Shown in pieces: positions 3,215 to 28,846 of a DNA stretch of 28,846 nucleotides. How positions within the stretch are numbered: the stretch's first letter is position 1; the number at the start of each line of letters is the position of its first letter. The stretch is from IMG/VR virus record IMGVR_UViG_3300010148_000081, positions 1 to 28,846 of that record; one strand, 5' to 3'. Below the pieces are notes generated by a model that had not been told where the DNA came from, did no database searches, and saw only the letters and a list, made by a program, of their open reading frames with translations. The DNA is from a virus. Made by a program: the position numbers and the translations under genes.

Positions 3215-4870
3215 ATGATAATTAACAAAATGAACGATGGTAAAACAATTTATAAATCATGGAGAGAGAACGGTGAAAAGAAATATGAAATGGTTGATTT
3301 TCAACCCTATTTCTTTGTTGATGAAGATTCGCATGAACCGCCAGCGTATAATGCTTCTAAGTATATTACAAGAGATTTTAGTTATGTGCGTGGTGATTGG
3401 GTTAATCTTAATAAAAAGCCACTAAAGAAAGTATTAGTGGATTCAGCAAATGATATTAGAGAAGCAAAGAAGATATTTGGTAAAACCTATGAAGCAGATG
3501 TTCCTTTACATTTTAGATACTGTGTTGATGAATTACATGAAATGCCTGAATATAAACTGCGTAAGTGGTATTGGGATATGGAATGGCAACAAGGCGGAGA
3601 AAACCATGATAAAATTACTACTATTGTTGTTTATGACAATTATGATGAAGCCTATTATCAATGGGTATGGTTTCCTAATTACGATGATTCCTTAGAAGGA
3701 AAAGACATGAAAGATTTTGATAAGTTTATTTTTGATAATGAAAAAGATATGATTGAAAACTTTATGACAACTATGGTTGTAAAAGACCCCGATATGTTAA
3801 TTGCATGGTTCGGGAACTTTGCTGATATTCCTAAACTATTAGAAAGAGCGTGTGCAGTAGGTTTGAATCCTTGCATTATGTCGCCTATTGGTTATATTAA
3901 AGGTATTAAAAAGACTAAAGATGGATTTTCTTTTGCTTATGCGGAGAATGGATTTAGTCCTATCGAACAACCTATTGGTGGGAGAATTACTCTTTCATTG
4001 GACTTAGCATTTGAAAGACAATGGAATGACTCTCAAAGAGGAACATTACCATCAATGTCTTTAGATTACATAAGTGAAACGGTTCTCGGTAAAAAGAAAT
4101 TAGTATCGGAAAAGTTTCCAGATACAAATGAATTTTATAGAAGGGCTTGGTTAGAAGATACAGAAACTTATCTTGAGTATGCCCTCATAGATGTTAAATT
4201 GATTGTTGAAATAGATGAAACAAACTTTTGTAGTGAGGCTATTCTTTCTCTTCAAAGATTACTGAAAGCACCATTTGATGCTTGTTTTTATGCAAGTCAT
4301 ATGGGTTCTATTTATTTTATGCGTAATGCTTGGTGGAAAGCACCAACAGGAAGTAAAGTGGATAAAAGAGAAGAATATGAAGGGGCTATGATTTATGACC
4401 CATTAAGCGAAGAAACAAATGGATTACATCTTAATGTAGCCGCTTTTGATTTTGCAGGTCTATATCCATCTATGATGATTGCTCGTAATATAAGTTGGGA
4501 AACCATTAGTCAAGAACCAACAGAATTTGCAGTTAATATACTAACTCCAAGAGATTTTAGTCCAGTTGAAAGAGAACATATGTTATATTTTAAAACAGAT
4601 GAACTTGGATTATTACCAAGAGCAGTATTAGAATTGAAGGAGTTGCGAAATGAATATAAACGACTTATGAGAGAAGCAAGAGGAACGGGAGATTATGCTA
4701 AGTGGTATAACAATCAAATGGCTGTAAAGAGATTAATGGCTTCTTTTTACGGTATCGTTGCTTTTCAAGGATTCGGTTGGGCTAATGTTAATTTAGCGGC
4801 ATCAATTACTGCAAGTGCAAGAGAAGCAATTAGATTAGCGGCATTTAAGGCAAAGGAGATGGAAGTATGA
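3215..4870 (+). CDS. polB: Family B DNA polymerase, N-terminal piece (exonuclease plus motifs A and B), 551 aa
   Basis: This is the proofreading exonuclease and the first part of the polymerase domain of a family B replicative polymerase. Exo I is WDMEW (D121, E123), Exo II is N201-FA-D204, and Exo III is Y322-ALI-D326, so the 3'-5' exonuclease looks intact. Motif A is D412-FAGLYPS and motif B is K505-RLMASFYG. The frame then ends at residue 551 (AFKAKEMEV) just before motif C would appear. The rest of the enzyme is encoded 1.35 kb downstream (6218-7111), after seven small genes. The start follows GGGTGAATAATA. The stop overlaps the next start (ATGA). No intein or split-intein residues are seen at the end, so the two pieces must associate non-covalently if active. 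Confidence 0.9.
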   Translation: MIINKMNDGKTIYKSWRENGEKKYEMVDFQPYFFVDEDSHEPPAYNASKYITRDFSYVRGDWVNLNKKPLKKVLVDSANDIREAKKIFGKTYEADVPLHFRYCVDELHEMPEYKLRKWYWDMEWQQGGENHDKITTIVVYDNYDEAYYQWVWFPNYDDSLEGKDMKDFDKFIFDNEKDMIENFMTTMVVKDPDMLIAWFGNFADIPKLLERACAVGLNPCIMSPIGYIKGIKKTKDGFSFAYAENGFSPIEQPIGGRITLSLDLAFERQWNDSQRGTLPSMSLDYISETVLGKKKLVSEKFPDTNEFYRRAWLEDTETYLEYALIDVKLIVEIDETNFCSEAILSLQRLLKAPFDACFYASHMGSIYFMRNAWWKAPTGSKVDKREEYEGAMIYDPLSEETNGLHLNVAAFDFAGLYPSMMIARNISWETISQEPTEFAVNILTPRDFSPVEREHMLYFKTDELGLLPRAVLELKELRNEYKRLMREARGTGDYAKWYNNQMAVKRLMASFYGIVAFQGFGWANVNLAASITASAREAIRLAAFKAKEMEV

Positions 4871-6016: not shown

Positions 6017-6213
6017 AAGATGAACTAAAAGAATTAAAAAGAGAAATAGAAACCCTTAAACAAAAAATTAGAGGTTTAGAAAAAGACTTAGATTACCATG
6101 TTGAAAACAATAGAGGCATCGGTAGTCTTAAAATGTGTATTCAGGAACTACAAGAAGAAGTTGCTAAAATGCAAAATCAACCTGTTGGAATACTTTTTAC
6201 TTGGCTACGGTGA
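6013..6213 (+). CDS. Coiled-coil protein, 66 aa
   Basis: Residues 2-55 form regular heptads of Leu/Ile with charged flanks (for example LKELKREIETLKQKIRGLEKDL), interrupted by a Gly-rich kink near residue 35. A dimeric or trimeric coiled coil is expected. The start uses GGTGATAATATG and overlaps the previous stop (ATGA). It is the last gene before the C-terminal PolB piece, 4 nt away. It could hold partner proteins together, conceivably the split polymerase, but that is speculation. Confidence 0.65.
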   Translation: MKDELKELKREIETLKQKIRGLEKDLDYHVENNRGIGSLKMCIQELQEEVAKMQNQPVGILFTWLR

Positions 6214-6217
6214 TATT

Positions 6218-7111
6218 ATGAAAGTAGTTTATGGACATACCGATTCTATTTATGTACAAATTGATTCCGTTGAAACTGCTAAAAAAGCGATTAAAGAAAT
6301 TGAAGCAAGCGTAAGAGAACATTTTCCTAATATAATGGAATTAGATGAACACCCAGTAGTATTAGAATTTGAAAAGTATTTTTCGGCATTAGGAGTAGGA
6401 ACAACTAAAAACAGAAATGCTGGTTTAGTATCTTGGGAAGATGGTGAATGGTTAAAAGAACCTAAATTTACTATGACAGGATTTACTGCTAAAAGAGTAA
6501 GTGAAACCAAATTAGCCAAAGGAGTTCAAACTAATACTCTCAAAATGTGGGTTGAAAATAAATCACAGAAGGAAATCAATATGTATTTATTTGATACTTA
6601 TTTAAAAGTATCAACAGGACAAATTGATTTAAAGTCTATTATTAAAAGAAGTAGATTACGACCTAACAGATTCACAGTAAAATGCCCCGAATGTAATGCT
6701 AAATATCATCTTAGAGATTGTTTAGACTTAAAACATTCAGTATGTAAAAAATGTGCAACAGAAACAACTAAATTTACTACATTAGATGGAAAGAAACCAT
6801 CAATAGGTTCAGGAATTGCTGGCGTTTTATATGCTTGGGAGAAAAATGACACTAAATTTGATGACTCTTATTTATTTATTAAAGTAAAGGGCGCATTTGA
6901 TACATTTATTCACCCTTTAACTCAAGAAAAGAAAGAAGTTGAATACATATCGGGCATAACTTATGAAGATTTTAAGGGTTGTAGCCCCGATTGGAAGCAC
7001 TACGCTGAACAAGTAGTAAAGAAAGCCGAACCTATTTACAAGGCTATGGGTTGGGATATTTCATCTATCCGCACAGGATATATGCAAACAAGCCTTGATG
7101 AATGGTGGTGA
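6218..7111 (+). CDS. polB: Family B DNA polymerase, C-terminal piece (motif C, thumb, zinc finger, PIP box), 297 aa
   Basis: This completes the polymerase begun at 3215. It starts with MKVVYGHTDSIYV, which is motif C with His at the usual first Asp (residues 5-10; D9 is retained). The thumb region follows (about 40-150). Residues 156-179 contain CPEC...C168...CKKC, a zinc-ribbon insertion not found in typical archaeal PolB thumbs. The last eight residues, QTSLDEWW (290-297), match the PIP-box consensus (Q-x-x-hydrophobic-x-x-aromatic-aromatic). The ATG at 6218 was chosen because GGTGATATT precedes it. The longer in-frame extension upstream is only the shadow of the coiled-coil gene. The N-terminal Val-Val-Tyr strand continues naturally from the end of the N-terminal piece, so nothing of the polymerase seems to be missing. 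Confidence 0.88.
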   Translation: MKVVYGHTDSIYVQIDSVETAKKAIKEIEASVREHFPNIMELDEHPVVLEFEKYFSALGVGTTKNRNAGLVSWEDGEWLKEPKFTMTGFTAKRVSETKLAKGVQTNTLKMWVENKSQKEINMYLFDTYLKVSTGQIDLKSIIKRSRLRPNRFTVKCPECNAKYHLRDCLDLKHSVCKKCATETTKFTTLDGKKPSIGSGIAGVLYAWEKNDTKFDDSYLFIKVKGAFDTFIHPLTQEKKEVEYISGITYEDFKGCSPDWKHYAEQVVKKAEPIYKAMGWDISSIRTGYMQTSLDEWW

Positions 7112-25005: not shown

Positions 25006-27612
25006 TCACCTCAAATTACTTGTATTGCTTTGTCTTTGAATATTATTTGTTATTGTTCTTGACACTTCTCTTGCAATTCTATCCATTTCTGCTTTTGAAG
25101 TATCTTTTGCATTAATTGTAATATTTATGTTATTTACTTGATTAGAAGTTTTTCCGTTATTAGTAGACATTCGCCTAGATTCTTTATTATTGTAAACTGT
25201 TGCTCCTTTAGGTAAAGTAACTAATTCTGGGCCTTCTTCTCCAACAACTGCTAAACCACCTGAAGTAACTGTTCCTCCCGTAGCAACACCTGGAATTTTC
25301 TTTATTAATCTTATAAGGCTTCTAAATGCTCCAGTTATGAAATCAAAAACTTTCATAAAAGGGCTAAGTAAAAATTTACCTACTTTAAATACTGCAAGAC
25401 CAATAACTATTGCTAACCAAACAGGCGCACCCATTATAATTGCCGTTATAGCAGCAGCAATACCTAATATCATAGCGATACCTTTAACCATCTTTTTTGA
25501 ATCAGTAAAGAATCCAAGTATTACTTTCCAAGCATTATCCCATACTCTTTTAATTAATTCCCATGTAAATACTAATGCTACACCAAGTCCTGCAATCGCT
25601 AAAGAAACCGCCATCATTAGTAATCCTAAACCTAATTCAATAAATCCATCTATTAAATCACTAATAGAACCATCTCCAAAAATAGCATTATAAATTTTAA
25701 ATAAACTATCCTTAATCATAGTCCAAGCAAATGTTATGAGAGGTGCAAGAACCTCAATAACTCCCATCGCTTTAGCAAAAGAATCTTTTAATATTGGGCC
25801 AAATGCTTTTAATAAAACTACAATAGCAATAATAGCCATAGACACATAAACAAAACTGGCTGCTGCGGCTTTAAAAACAAATTTTATAGCAGGTAAAACA
25901 CCACCTAATGCTTTAACAAAGCCGAATAGTGCTTTTAGTTTAGGGGCTTTATTTAGAAGTGCGCCTAAACTTTCTTTCCTTGTGGCTTTTAGTAACTTAA
26001 GTTGTTCTTTAGCATTTTTAATTGTTTCTTCTGAATTTTTATCATCAGTATCTAATTGAATTGCTTCTTCTCCTGCTTGTTGTTGAAATCTTGTTTTCTT
26101 TTTAATTTTTGTTTTTGTGGAGGTTATTTGGTCTTTTAATTCTTTTTCTTGAACTTTAGTAAGTGAACCTGCTTTTTGCTTTATCTTTAGTTCTTCTTCA
26201 AGAAGTTTCTTTTTTTCCGCTAACATTTGCAGGGCTTTTCCCCTATCTTGAATCTCTAATGCTATTTCTTTTCTTCTGTCAGCCCTTGTTTTCAAGTCCT
26301 TTTTAGCATTTTTTATTTCCTGTTTTATTGCATTAGAGCCTTTATTCATGGCTAATTGCTTATCATATTTAGCCTGTAATTTTGTTTTCTTTTCAAGTTG
26401 TTCAGCAAGTTCTTTTTCTTTCACCTTTGCTTCTTCAAGACTTTTAAGTTGAGCCTCTAATTGTTTTATGTTGCCAGTATCTCTCTTATTCATATTAAGA
26501 ATAGGAACATATTCTTCTATTTCTTTTCTTACTCTTTCTTCCATTTCTGCTCTCTTTTCAGCAGTATTGTTAAGTCTAGTTAATTCTTTATTTATTTTTT
26601 TAGTATCAATAGAATCTATCTGTGCTTGAGTTTTCTTAAGAGTTTTATCTAAATTAAATCCTTCTTTAAATTGTTTACCTAGTCCTTTTCTTTCTTTAAA
26701 TAAAGAAAATAAACCTTTAGTATCTCCATATGCTTGCTTTGCTCCTTCTTTTATTGCGACAAAAGGCGATTTTGATATTTTAGTTAAAACGCTCCAATAA
26801 TTTTTACCAAAGGCATTTAACCAAGATAACGGATTCTTTTTGTTATTTACTTCCTTAGTTCCAGCGGAGAGAGGGTTCATTATTTTTTTATCAATAAATC
26901 CTCCTATTTTCTTTGATACTGTTAATATACTTGTAAAAAAATTAGGTTGTGCATCGGCTTCTAATTTTGAAACTATTTCCGAAATCTTTTCAAAATTTTC
27001 ATCACCCTCTTTCATTCCTTTTAATTCATCTTTATATTTTTCTAATTCCTCTCTAGCACCTTTTCCGTTATCTTTAAGTTTTCTCATTGTTCCGCCTAAA
27101 AATTGGAAAGAAGATGAGAATTTATTCACTAATCTAAACATTCCGGGCGGTAAAAACCCATACATAACTTTACGGGCTTTTGCTGCTTCTAAACCAAATA
27201 CAGTTAATTCTTCTCTTCCTGAAGATAAAAATTCCGCAAAGTATTCAAGAAGATTTCCTCCTTGTTTTAGATAAACATTCATTCCTTTAAGAAAAGGAAC
27301 GGCTTTACCATCTTTAGTAAATTTAGCAATTGTTGAGTTCATAATAGAGGTTCTTTTGTTAAAGTTACCCATTACTTCTCCTACTTTAGTTATTTCTTGC
27401 CCATACTCATTTACTCTTACGCCAGCCTTATTAAATAATTTTTCACCATCTCTTGTATCAACGCCTAATCTTCTTTGTAAAGCGGAAATATCAGCAGTTG
27501 CTTTTTTTGCGTTTTTAAGATTAGTTTCATAACTTCCTAAACTTTTTATAAAACTTTCCATTGTTCCTTGTAATCCAAGAACAGAAGTATTTAGTTTAGC
27601 AATTTCAGTCAT
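25006..27612 (-). CDS. Tape measure protein, 868 aa
   Basis: This would span the tail tube and set tail length. Residues about 330-545 form long charged coiled coils (LEAQLKSLEEAKV, LKTRADRRKEIALEI). Several hydrophobic segments follow (about 582-602, 617-632, 660-688 and 710-742). The C-terminal signature ATGGTVTSGG...VGEEGPELVTLPKGATV is highly typical of tape measure proteins. The ATG at 27612 was preferred to an in-frame GTG at 27621 because GTGAGG lies between them. At about 0.15 nm per residue, a tail of roughly 130 nm at most would be expected, an estimate from the general rule. The tail chaperone genes immediately upstream support the call. Confidence 0.92.
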   Translation of the reverse strand: MTEIAKLNTSVLGLQGTMESFIKSLGSYETNLKNAKKATADISALQRRLGVDTRDGEKLFNKAGVRVNEYGQEITKVGEVMGNFNKRTSIMNSTIAKFTKDGKAVPFLKGMNVYLKQGGNLLEYFAEFLSSGREELTVFGLEAAKARKVMYGFLPPGMFRLVNKFSSSFQFLGGTMRKLKDNGKGAREELEKYKDELKGMKEGDENFEKISEIVSKLEADAQPNFFTSILTVSKKIGGFIDKKIMNPLSAGTKEVNNKKNPLSWLNAFGKNYWSVLTKISKSPFVAIKEGAKQAYGDTKGLFSLFKERKGLGKQFKEGFNLDKTLKKTQAQIDSIDTKKINKELTRLNNTAEKRAEMEERVRKEIEEYVPILNMNKRDTGNIKQLEAQLKSLEEAKVKEKELAEQLEKKTKLQAKYDKQLAMNKGSNAIKQEIKNAKKDLKTRADRRKEIALEIQDRGKALQMLAEKKKLLEEELKIKQKAGSLTKVQEKELKDQITSTKTKIKKKTRFQQQAGEEAIQLDTDDKNSEETIKNAKEQLKLLKATRKESLGALLNKAPKLKALFGFVKALGGVLPAIKFVFKAAAASFVYVSMAIIAIVVLLKAFGPILKDSFAKAMGVIEVLAPLITFAWTMIKDSLFKIYNAIFGDGSISDLIDGFIELGLGLLMMAVSLAIAGLGVALVFTWELIKRVWDNAWKVILGFFTDSKKMVKGIAMILGIAAAITAIIMGAPVWLAIVIGLAVFKVGKFLLSPFMKVFDFITGAFRSLIRLIKKIPGVATGGTVTSGGLAVVGEEGPELVTLPKGATVYNNKESRRMSTNNGKTSNQVNNINITINAKDTSKAEMDRIAREVSRTITNNIQRQSNTSNLR

Positions 27613-27617
27613 AATCC

Positions 27618-27824
27618 TCACTTATGTTTTTTCATTTCTTTTTCCATTTCTTCTGATTCTATTTCTAATATTGCGCTATGAACACTTAATAAATCTTGAA
27701 CTAAACTCGCTGGCATTTGGTATATTTCAAGAGGGCTTATAGATAATGCTTTCGCTAAGGTATATACAACGATTAGTGAAGCGTCTTTCGGTTCGGCTTT
27801 ACCTCCCCTTAATATCCGCTTCAT
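27618..27824 (-). CDS. Tail assembly chaperone, frameshift extension (gpT-like), 68 aa from the internal ATG
   Basis: This frame lies just before the tape measure gene and overlaps the end of the upstream chaperone gene by 4 nt (ATGA). It has no well-placed ribosome site of its own. A -1 shift at A_AAA_AAC (27830-27836) would enter this frame two codons before its ATG and give a fused product of about 191 residues. The sequence is mainly helical (VVYTLAKALSISPLEIYQM, then LVQDLLSVHSAILEIESEEMEKEMKK), as for gpT-like extensions that bind the tape measure protein. Independent reinitiation at the overlapping ATG is the alternative. Confidence 0.75.
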   Translation of the reverse strand: MKRILRGGKAEPKDASLIVVYTLAKALSISPLEIYQMPASLVQDLLSVHSAILEIESEEMEKEMKKHK

Positions 27825-27836
27825 TCTTCGTTTTTT
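27777..27836 (-). promoter_or_regulatory. Programmed -1 ribosomal frameshift signal
   Basis: On the minus strand the zero frame reads GAG GAA AAA AAC GAA GAA TGA. The heptamer A_AAA_AAC (27836-27830) is in the correct phase for tandem -1 slippage. After a 6-nt spacer, TGAAGCG (27823-27817) can pair with CGCTTCA (27783-27777), a perfect 7-bp stem. Loop bases TAAGG (27811-27807) could also pair with CCTTA (27760-27756) to form a pseudoknot. GAGG directly precedes the slippery run and might act as an internal stimulator. Confidence 0.75.
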
Positions 27837-28192
27837 TCCTCGTCCCCCGACATAGAATCAAGAGGATTTGGTAATATTTCTTTTAATTGATTACCCACAT
27901 AAGGAGTTAATCGGAGAATATCAATAACTGAAAGGTTGGGTTCTGTTTTTACAACAAAATGCTCAACCATATACCTAAACATAGCATTTAAATCAATATC
28001 CATGCTTTGTGTTTTAGCATTGATTTTCATAAGACTATTCATAGCCTTATCAACCTCAAGCCAAGAGGGTTCTTTAACCCACACTTTTAGGTATTCTTCT
28101 ATTTCGGGTGCTACTTTAACATAATGTAGCGTAGGCTCTTGTAATGCAAACATTACACTTTTATCCGTTACGACTTTTTTATCATTTAACAT
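27821..28192 (-). CDS. Tail assembly chaperone (gpG-like), 123 aa
   Basis: The protein is mainly helical and acidic at its end. It lies between the tail tube and tape measure genes, where dsDNA tailed viruses encode the gpG/gpGT chaperone. It ends in a Gly-Asp-Glu-rich tail with the A-rich slippery codons, and its stop (TGA) overlaps the next frame. The ATG at 28192 was chosen because GGTGGAGAAT precedes it; the GTG at 28201 lies within that site. About 121 residues would be shared with the frameshift product. The function as chaperone is inferred from order, size and frameshift signal, since sequence conservation in this family is low. Confidence 0.75.
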   Translation of the reverse strand: MLNDKKVVTDKSVMFALQEPTLHYVKVAPEIEEYLKVWVKEPSWLEVDKAMNSLMKINAKTQSMDIDLNAMFRYMVEHFVVKTEPNLSVIDILRLTPYVGNQLKEILPNPLDSMSGDEEKNEE

Positions 28193-28240: not shown

Positions 28241-28369
28241 TTATTCTGTCTTATTTAATTTAGACTTAGGCTTGGCCTTTGATTTTTTTGGAAGATTTTG
28301 CTCCAAACGAGCATTAATTAATTCTCTTCTCTTAGCCATTCCTAATTTATATGCTTCTAACTTCTTCAT
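28241..28369 (-). CDS. Small basic protein, 42 aa
   Basis: The start follows GGGGTGATTAA four bases after the tail tube stop. Residues 1-24 are likely helical (KKLEAYKLGMAKRRELINARLEQ), followed by a lysine/proline-rich tail (KKSKAKPKSK). It is very basic and might contact DNA, RNA or tail tube surfaces. No family recognised. It lies between the tail tube and the chaperone gene, a position often occupied by small tail accessory genes. Confidence 0.65.
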   Translation of the reverse strand: MKKLEAYKLGMAKRRELINARLEQNLPKKSKAKPKSKLNKTE

Positions 28370-28373
28370 TTAA

Positions 28374-28846
28374 TCACCCCAAAATAACCCAATCAGTACC
28401 AATTGTGCATGAATGTAAATCTCTTGGTTTAATTGTTGCTTCAATAGTAACTGGGCCTTTATCATCAGGAATTGTCCAATTAGCAGTATCTAAAAAGTAA
28501 TTCTTAAATTGAAGGTCAATAAATTCTTCATTATCCTCTTTATCAAATCTTAATTTAATTAGTTGAGAACTGCCTGTTCCGACTGTTTCTGCCTCATTAA
28601 GATAATATCTAAAAATTTCATCATCAGTAACAATTGCACTAAAAGTAATGACATATGCTCTTTGTGCGGCCAAACCTTCTTTCATATCACGGTGTCCACC
28701 CATATATCTTTTATCTTGTAAATTGTTTTGAATTTCAATACTAACACTTGAAACCTTAAGGAATTGTTGCCCAAAGGCTTCTAAACTTCCCGAAGAAAAG
28801 AAGAAAGGCGCACCAGAATTTGTTCCTGCATTCCAGTTGAAAAGGT
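28374..28846 (-). CDS. Major tail tube protein, partial (C-terminal 157 residues)
   Basis: The frame stays open to the window edge; the apparent ATG at 28703 is internal, because sense codons continue upstream (ending in NLQDKRYMGGHRD across that point). The sequence alternates beta-strands, with SGSLEAFGQQFLKVSVSIEIQNN, then a long strand AYVITFSAIVTDDEIFRYYL, another LIKLRFDKED, and a final VTIEATIKPRDLHSC. That is the beta-sandwich pattern of tail tube proteins, in the expected position before the chaperones and tape measure gene. The N-terminus and start codon are beyond the right edge. Confidence 0.75.
   Translation of the reverse strand, partial: LFNWNAGTNSGAPFFFSSGSLEAFGQQFLKVSSVSIEIQNNLQDKRYMGGHRDMKEGLAAQRAYVITFSAIVTDDEIFRYYLNEAETVGTGSSQLIKLRFDKEDNEEFIDLQFKNYFLDTANWTIPDDKGPVTIEATIKPRDLHSCTIGTDWVILG

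Follow-up and report, generated by a model that had tools for sequence, protein, structure and literature searches.

How is the second of two overlapping tail-chaperone frames translated in a virus that probably infects archaea? We examined this question in IMG/VR record IMGVR_UViG_3300010148_000081, positions 1 to 28,846 (28,846 nt, i.e., 28.8 kb; hereafter the window), in which a chaperone frame (G) runs into a second frame (T) lying in the -1 register, and for which a preliminary description had proposed a programmed -1 frameshift joining the two.

Tail genes and probable identity of the virus

G occupies positions 27821..28192 of the minus strand (123 amino acids, 0 frame) and ends in a TGA (27823..27821, minus strand). 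Its start is most likely ATG 28192, with the Shine–Dalgarno (SD) sequence GGTGGAG just upstream; this codon was preferred because the listed GTG 28201 sits inside that SD sequence. The -1-frame extension T (27618..27824, minus strand) comprises 68 amino acids from its own ATG. Members of the G alignment matched three PHROG tail-assembly-chaperone families (best E-value 8e-8), and T matched tail assembly chaperone family PHROG 9001 (E-value 1.2e-5); a Pfam search of G and T returned no significant match. G was also modeled with AlphaFold2 (mean pLDDT 77), and in the Foldseek viral library this model matched the HHTV-2 (Haloarcula hispanica tailed virus 2) tail assembly chaperone (E-value 1.3e-7) as well as Bacillus phage chaperones, with Mu FS-gp41 further down the list. 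Against the PDB, the same model had no significant Foldseek match (3klu, YqbN, at rank 2, was not significant), and a profile comparison of the G family with HVTV-1 G indicated a distant likeness (hhalign E-value 1e-4). Profiles and predicted fold thus point to G and T being tail assembly chaperones.

Downstream, the tape measure gene (25006..27612, minus strand; PHROG tape measure families, E-values 1.3e-9 and 1.5e-8) has its own ATG at 27612 with an SD-like GAGGAT just upstream, and is therefore expected to be initiated separately. Upstream, an open frame at 28374..28846 (minus strand) runs past the window end and represents the C-terminal part of a tail protein. It is placed like the tail tube gene of HCTV-2 and the same gene is carried by relatives; PHROG and Pfam gave no tail-tube family match, and its tail-tube identity comes from position. 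The proposed gene order (tail tube, chaperones, tape measure) holds, with the tape measure identified by PHROG and the tail tube by position. A small basic protein of ~43 residues, which begins MKKLEAYKLGMAKRRELINARLEQNLPKKSKAKPKSKLNKT, is encoded between the tail protein and G (28247-28369, minus strand).

The window has a G+C content of 31.6% and two gene clusters of opposed direction, and encodes a family-B polymerase (PolB) in two ORFs along with an ERCC4 nuclease (Pfam). PolB is apparently split into N- and C-terminal ORFs (3215-4870 and 6098-7111, plus strand) with small ORFs in between, the Pfam check concerning the first part; separate ORFs for the N- and C-parts are a likeness to Aobingvirus. 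All 11 longer relatives encode a Cpn60 chaperonin; ten of these records measure 87-97 kb and the other 185 kb. Among ten long relatives, archaeal TFIIB was above cut-off in one, the archaeo-eukaryotic primase PF01896 in none, and MCM helicase gave sub-cut-off matches in four, although divergent primase and MCM genes could escape these models. A tblastn search of G and the tape measure against a phage collection returned no match. Aoguangviridae/Magrovirales are described as having genomes of 90-110 kb with ~31.5% G+C, in which replication and morphogenesis clusters run oppositely, and as encoding PolB N- and C-domains, a tail assembly chaperone, GroEL, and TFB (PMC10768690, PMC12999244). Further traits of the order are an archaeo-eukaryotic primase and an MCM helicase. 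G+C content, opposed clusters, and split PolB are matched by the window, and genome length and chaperonin by the long relatives. This gene content is consistent with the archaeal virus originally suggested, and more specifically with a magrovirus type whose presumed hosts are marine Poseidoniales archaea; the host assignment is kept provisional because the primase and MCM models gave no confirmation.

Two records among the relatives stand apart. With 184733 bases and two chaperonin genes, L045 is roughly double the size of the other records and may combine two genomes fused during assembly. L161 (NZMJ01000011.1), the sole match on a metagenome-assembled genome (MAG) contig, encodes the G-T chaperone pair on a contig binned as the bacterium Maricaulis sp.; as the related contigs are viral and magrovirus-like, mis-binning of a viral contig is the probable explanation, and L161 therefore provides no host link.

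Slippery heptamer and access to the T frame

The minus strand at 27850-27815 carries TCG GGG GAC GAG GAA AAA AAC GAA GAA TGA. As initially reported, a slippery heptamer A_AAA_AAC (27836..27830, minus strand) lies here in X_XXY_YYZ phase relative to G, four codons ahead of the G stop, its last codon AAC being two codons ahead. Beginning 34 nt ahead of the G stop, the -1 frame stays open through the end of T (27824-27618), so that it does run into the downstream frame, and a full G-T fusion with G read from ATG 28192 would comprise 191 residues, the size predicted. An Rfam search returned no match. For comparison, we used relatives from IMG/VR scans with G (L001-L160 and L183-L262) plus L161, and removal of identical 105-nt regions left 173 distinct loci.

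The leading competing explanation is that T is a separate protein made by translational coupling, i.e., ribosomes ending G restart at the T ATG, which in the window overlaps the G stop as ATGA. T had been said to lack a clear ribosome site; an ATG is present and overlaps the stop, yet 19 nt separate it from the closest SD-like run ahead of it (27844-27848), a distance too great for ordinary SD use and initiation. A start codon at the stop/start overlap was found in 38 of the 109 distinct loci checked, but in 51 of them no ATG, GTG, or TTG occurs between the point where the T frame opens and position +18; in these, T would be reachable only by a shift, and free T is therefore not the conserved product. 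G also ends in TAA and TAG, hence without ATGA, and coupling leaves unexplained the heptamer as well as the AAC bias and hairpin described below. We consider coupling improbable as the general route to T, although reinitiation may add some free T in viruses like that of the window.

Conservation of the heptamer instead favors a programmed -1 shift. Of the 173 distinct loci, 169 place T in the -1 frame, and every one of these carries a canonical heptamer (A_AAA_AAN, G_GGA_AAN, or T_TTA_AAA) in the right phase, which is the outcome of the suggested check of heptamer and phase in related contigs. Among distinct loci, these are A_AAA_AAC (68), A_AAA_AAA (10), A_AAA_AAG (7), and A_AAA_AAT (1); G_GGA_AAN in 61, i.e., G_GGA_AAC (43), G_GGA_AAT (9), G_GGA_AAA (7), and G_GGA_AAG (2); and T_TTA_AAA (22). 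This tally includes nine sister-group loci (seven distinct) scored as -1 by their open frame, for which the T match was not significant; these frames are long enough to span T except in L218, and the group includes G_GGA_AAR-type heptamers. The A-run is often swapped in relatives but, where T is in the -1 frame, always for another in-phase canonical heptamer. A relative in which the slippery run was destroyed while both frames were kept, named beforehand as the case that would speak against the frameshift, was sought in the 173 distinct loci, and none was found with T in the -1 frame.

To place these counts against background, 59 of 1083 other ORF ends from the same loci (5.4%) had a heptamer within the last 15 codons, and 11 of 1083 (~1%) combined it with a -1 frame open for 40 codons, five of these being G genes of loci outside the analyzed list. 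By itself, then, an in-phase heptamer close to the end of a gene is not rare, and the site gains its significance from being conserved in 169 of 169. Also among the 11, gene ends with heptamer and open -1 frame in L002, L003, L020, and L032 were rejected as further candidates: the next gene has its own ATG and, for L003, L020, and L032, the heptamer is not conserved and an ordinary gene follows. A supposed avoidance of A_AAA_AAG, related to archaeal tRNA-Lys(CUU), was also dropped, as seven distinct A_AAA_AAG loci exist.

The heptamer could alternatively promote slippage of RNA polymerase instead of the ribosome, given the A7 run of the window (27831-27837) and the A6-A7 runs of many relatives. 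Nevertheless, the frame relation is the same in the 22 distinct T_TTA_AAA and 61 distinct G_GGA_AAN loci, which have no long homopolymer, the X_XXY_YYZ phase is kept throughout, and a 3′ hairpin with a 5′ SD-like run are stimulators of ribosomal shifts. Transcriptional slippage is therefore very unlikely, and the ribosomal -1 shift remains the preferred reading.

Putative stimulators and a change of shift type

Codon choice was evaluated in 41 representatives, which share less than 85% identity across this stretch, with binomial figures that ignore shared ancestry. Within the heptamer, A-site Asn was AAC in 35/35 (vs 24% genome usage) and Lys was AAA in 38/38 (vs 73%). Counted back from the codon whose last letter opens the heptamer, a second bias affects the third and fourth codons. 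At these two positions, Glu was GAG in 17/20 and 18/20, respectively (vs 16% genome usage); alongside the former, Gly was GGG in 16/18 (vs 11%), and alongside the latter, Gln was CAG in 7/7 (vs 16%). This G-ending bias is found at exactly two positions, and the two codons between them and the heptamer follow normal usage. The result of this synonymous choice is a G-run (GGAGG/GGGGG type) that ends 7 nt short of the heptamer; in the window it reads GGGGG (27844..27848, minus strand) and is a putative 5′ stimulator. Pairing with the anti-SD was computed for the general archaeal 16S rRNA 3′ end. Using this sequence, which may not be the host's, the duplex had a mean z of -2.0 relative to codon resamples, and was stronger than these resamples (p<0.05) in 24/41 loci. 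SD stimulators of -1 frameshifting stand 9-14 nt from the shift site (PMC5009743), and the spacing of the G-run is in or just below this range, depending on the counting point.

Past the heptamer, the window folds into a 3′ stem-loop (27777..27823, minus strand; outer arms 27823-27817 and 27783-27777) that begins 6 nt after the heptamer in its own fold, with a free energy of -14.9 kcal/mol and a moderate codon-controlled z of -2.4. Across relatives, the 60 nt after the heptamer were more stable than mononucleotide shuffles (mean z -4.1, 64 sequences) and than protein-keeping codon-usage resamples (mean z -3.6, with 36/41 below -2), while neighboring control windows had mean z of -0.45, 0.16, and -0.97. 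In the ungapped hairpin alignment, compensatory changes occur in the stem: the 13 core pairs, for which 79% of cells pair, had a covariation of 0.397 vs 0.286 ± 0.019 when shuffled, above all 500 shuffles (which ignore shared ancestry), and vs ≤0.221 in slid registers. RNAalifold recovered stem columns 16-23/54-61 and 30-32/46-48 with ribosum scoring, and no consensus structure with default scoring; the conserved core stem begins 8 nt past the heptamer. In the T_TTA_AAA group (L076-L107), the SD-like run is kept as GGGGAT and a strong 3′ hairpin is mostly missing (mean z -1.3), many members having a weak one or none. The two candidate stimulators are therefore not always paired, and the hairpin is not universal.

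The least credible alternative is that conservation of the protein sequence and an A+T-rich composition gave rise to heptamer and hairpin incidentally: the C-terminal GDEEKN of G and the N-terminal RGGK motif of T are conserved and chance heptamers occur at the 5.4% background rate noted above, but the synonymous choices are extreme (AAC, GGG, and GAG), codon-usage resampling preserves the protein and loses the hairpin, the residue before Lys varies (E, G, Q, A, S) and its third base is still A, and heptamer swaps change amino acids (KN, LK, GN) with slipperiness retained.

T occupies the -2/+1 frame in the remaining six loci, four of them distinct (L121; L134=L142=L143; L141; L160). Their site reads GAA GAA AAA AAG GAT GAT TAR (an A7G run), on which both tRNAs would be able to re-pair two bases back along seven As; the +1 alternative would require the A-site codon to become AGG. 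The hairpin is retained in these loci (mean z -2.9), and their relatives L153 and L159 use -1. Sequencing error is unlikely because three identical copies come from three samples and the other loci are divergent. These sequences suggest an apparent evolutionary switch of frameshift type inside one virus lineage; a -2 shift is used for the same gene pair in phage Mu (PMC5009743).

Proposed mechanism, precedents, and implications

Given the site with its phase and conservation, the codon bias, the hairpin covariation, and the chaperone homology, all read directly from the sequences, the G-T fusion very probably arises by programmed -1 ribosomal frameshifting at A_AAA_AAC, with the SD-like run and stem-loop as predicted stimulators. 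The slip, its efficiency, the action of both stimulators, and the role in tail assembly we infer as follows. Most ribosomes would read G (123 amino acids) and stop. A fraction would pause, with the SD-like run paired to 16S rRNA behind them and the stem-loop ahead, and the Lys- and Asn-tRNA of these paused ribosomes would slip back one base on A_AAA_AAC, so that T is read and the 191-residue G-T is made. If the pair acts like lambda gpG/gpGT, G in many copies and G-T in few would then coat the tape measure and recruit tail-tube subunits.

The gpG/gpGT type of frameshift is itself already known, and it has been predicted in haloarchaeal viruses. Pietila and Sencilo, both in 2013, reportedly predicted frameshifts in haloarchaeal siphovirus tail-chaperone genes. 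In two later sources, a tail-chaperone frameshift is given as proposed in 2013 for HVTV-1, HCTV-1, HCTV-2, and HCTV-5 (PMC8211752, PMC5009743), and one was also proposed for Hardycor1 (PMC7911831); the assertion that such cases are few among archaeal viruses is accurate, though the number is not zero. These haloarchaeal siphoviruses resemble the present one in being archaeal tailed viruses with the order tail tube, G, GT, tape measure and a -1 shift near the G stop, and GenBank holds a joined coding sequence for G-GT in HVTV-1 and HCTV-2. HCTV-2 likewise uses A_AAA_AAC, reading GCA AAA AAC at the matching place, and HVTV-1 uses G_GGA_AAG; neither of these two sites showed a notable 3′ hairpin. 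The haloarchaeal examples differ in comprising few genomes, whereas the present cassette spans 173 distinct loci and has an SD-like run and a covarying stem-loop.

Lambda gpG/gpGT also has two overlapping chaperone frames ahead of the tape measure and a canonical slippery site, but differs by a low-level shift and a bacterial ribosome, vs that of a presumed archaeal host here. To our knowledge, the lambda site works without such strong stimulators. The lambda tape measure is covered by G, the tube protein is brought in by T, and low-level shifting yields a G:GT ratio of ~30:1 (PMC5009743); conservation of the tail-assembly frameshift in dsDNA phages is attributed to Xu, Hendrix and Duda (2004) in the same source (PMC5009743).

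The closest parallel in design is Escherichia coli dnaX, which combines an SD-like 5′ stimulator, an A_AAA_AAN heptamer, and a 3′ stem-loop at short spacing. The SD-to-heptamer spacing of dnaX is 7 nt. Traits of this cassette type found here are an SD-like run produced by codon choice and a 3′ stem 8 nt past the heptamer, within the 5-9 nt that define the type; no homology is implied, dnaX being a bacterial chromosomal gene with A_AAA_AAG and a shorter shifted product. On archaeal ribosomes, a site of A_AAA_AAN type works in fucA1 of Saccharolobus solfataricus, where a -1 shift at A_AAA_AAT with a putative stem-loop reaches ~10% in vitro (PMC8211752). However, fucA1 is a cellular gene, conserved in few strains, for which no SD-like element is described. 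A 2021 review counted one demonstrated programmed -1 frameshift in archaea and a handful predicted in haloviruses (PMC8211752).

In the open literature, we found no account of an SD-like run with a covarying hairpin in archaeal viruses, although the 2013 halovirus papers and PMC11706807 may mention them, nor of the cassette throughout the present lineage or of a change from -1 to -2. We consider it rather likely, with less confidence than for the frameshift itself, that in magroviruses a dnaX-like dual-stimulator cassette drives efficient archaeal frameshifting and that one subclade switched to -2 (or +1) at A_AAA_AAA_G with the fusion kept. Magroviruses rank among the most abundant marine viruses (PMC10160649), and T is easily overlooked or mis-started in their annotation. 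More than 170 distinct natural variants of one archaeal-virus frameshift cassette are thus at hand, a natural series of heptamer swaps along with a changed shift type, with signals strong enough for a direct test of anti-SD pairing and a 3′ hairpin as stimulators in archaeal translation. If the proposed mechanism is true, elongating archaeal ribosomes would scan mRNA by their anti-SD, as bacterial ribosomes do.
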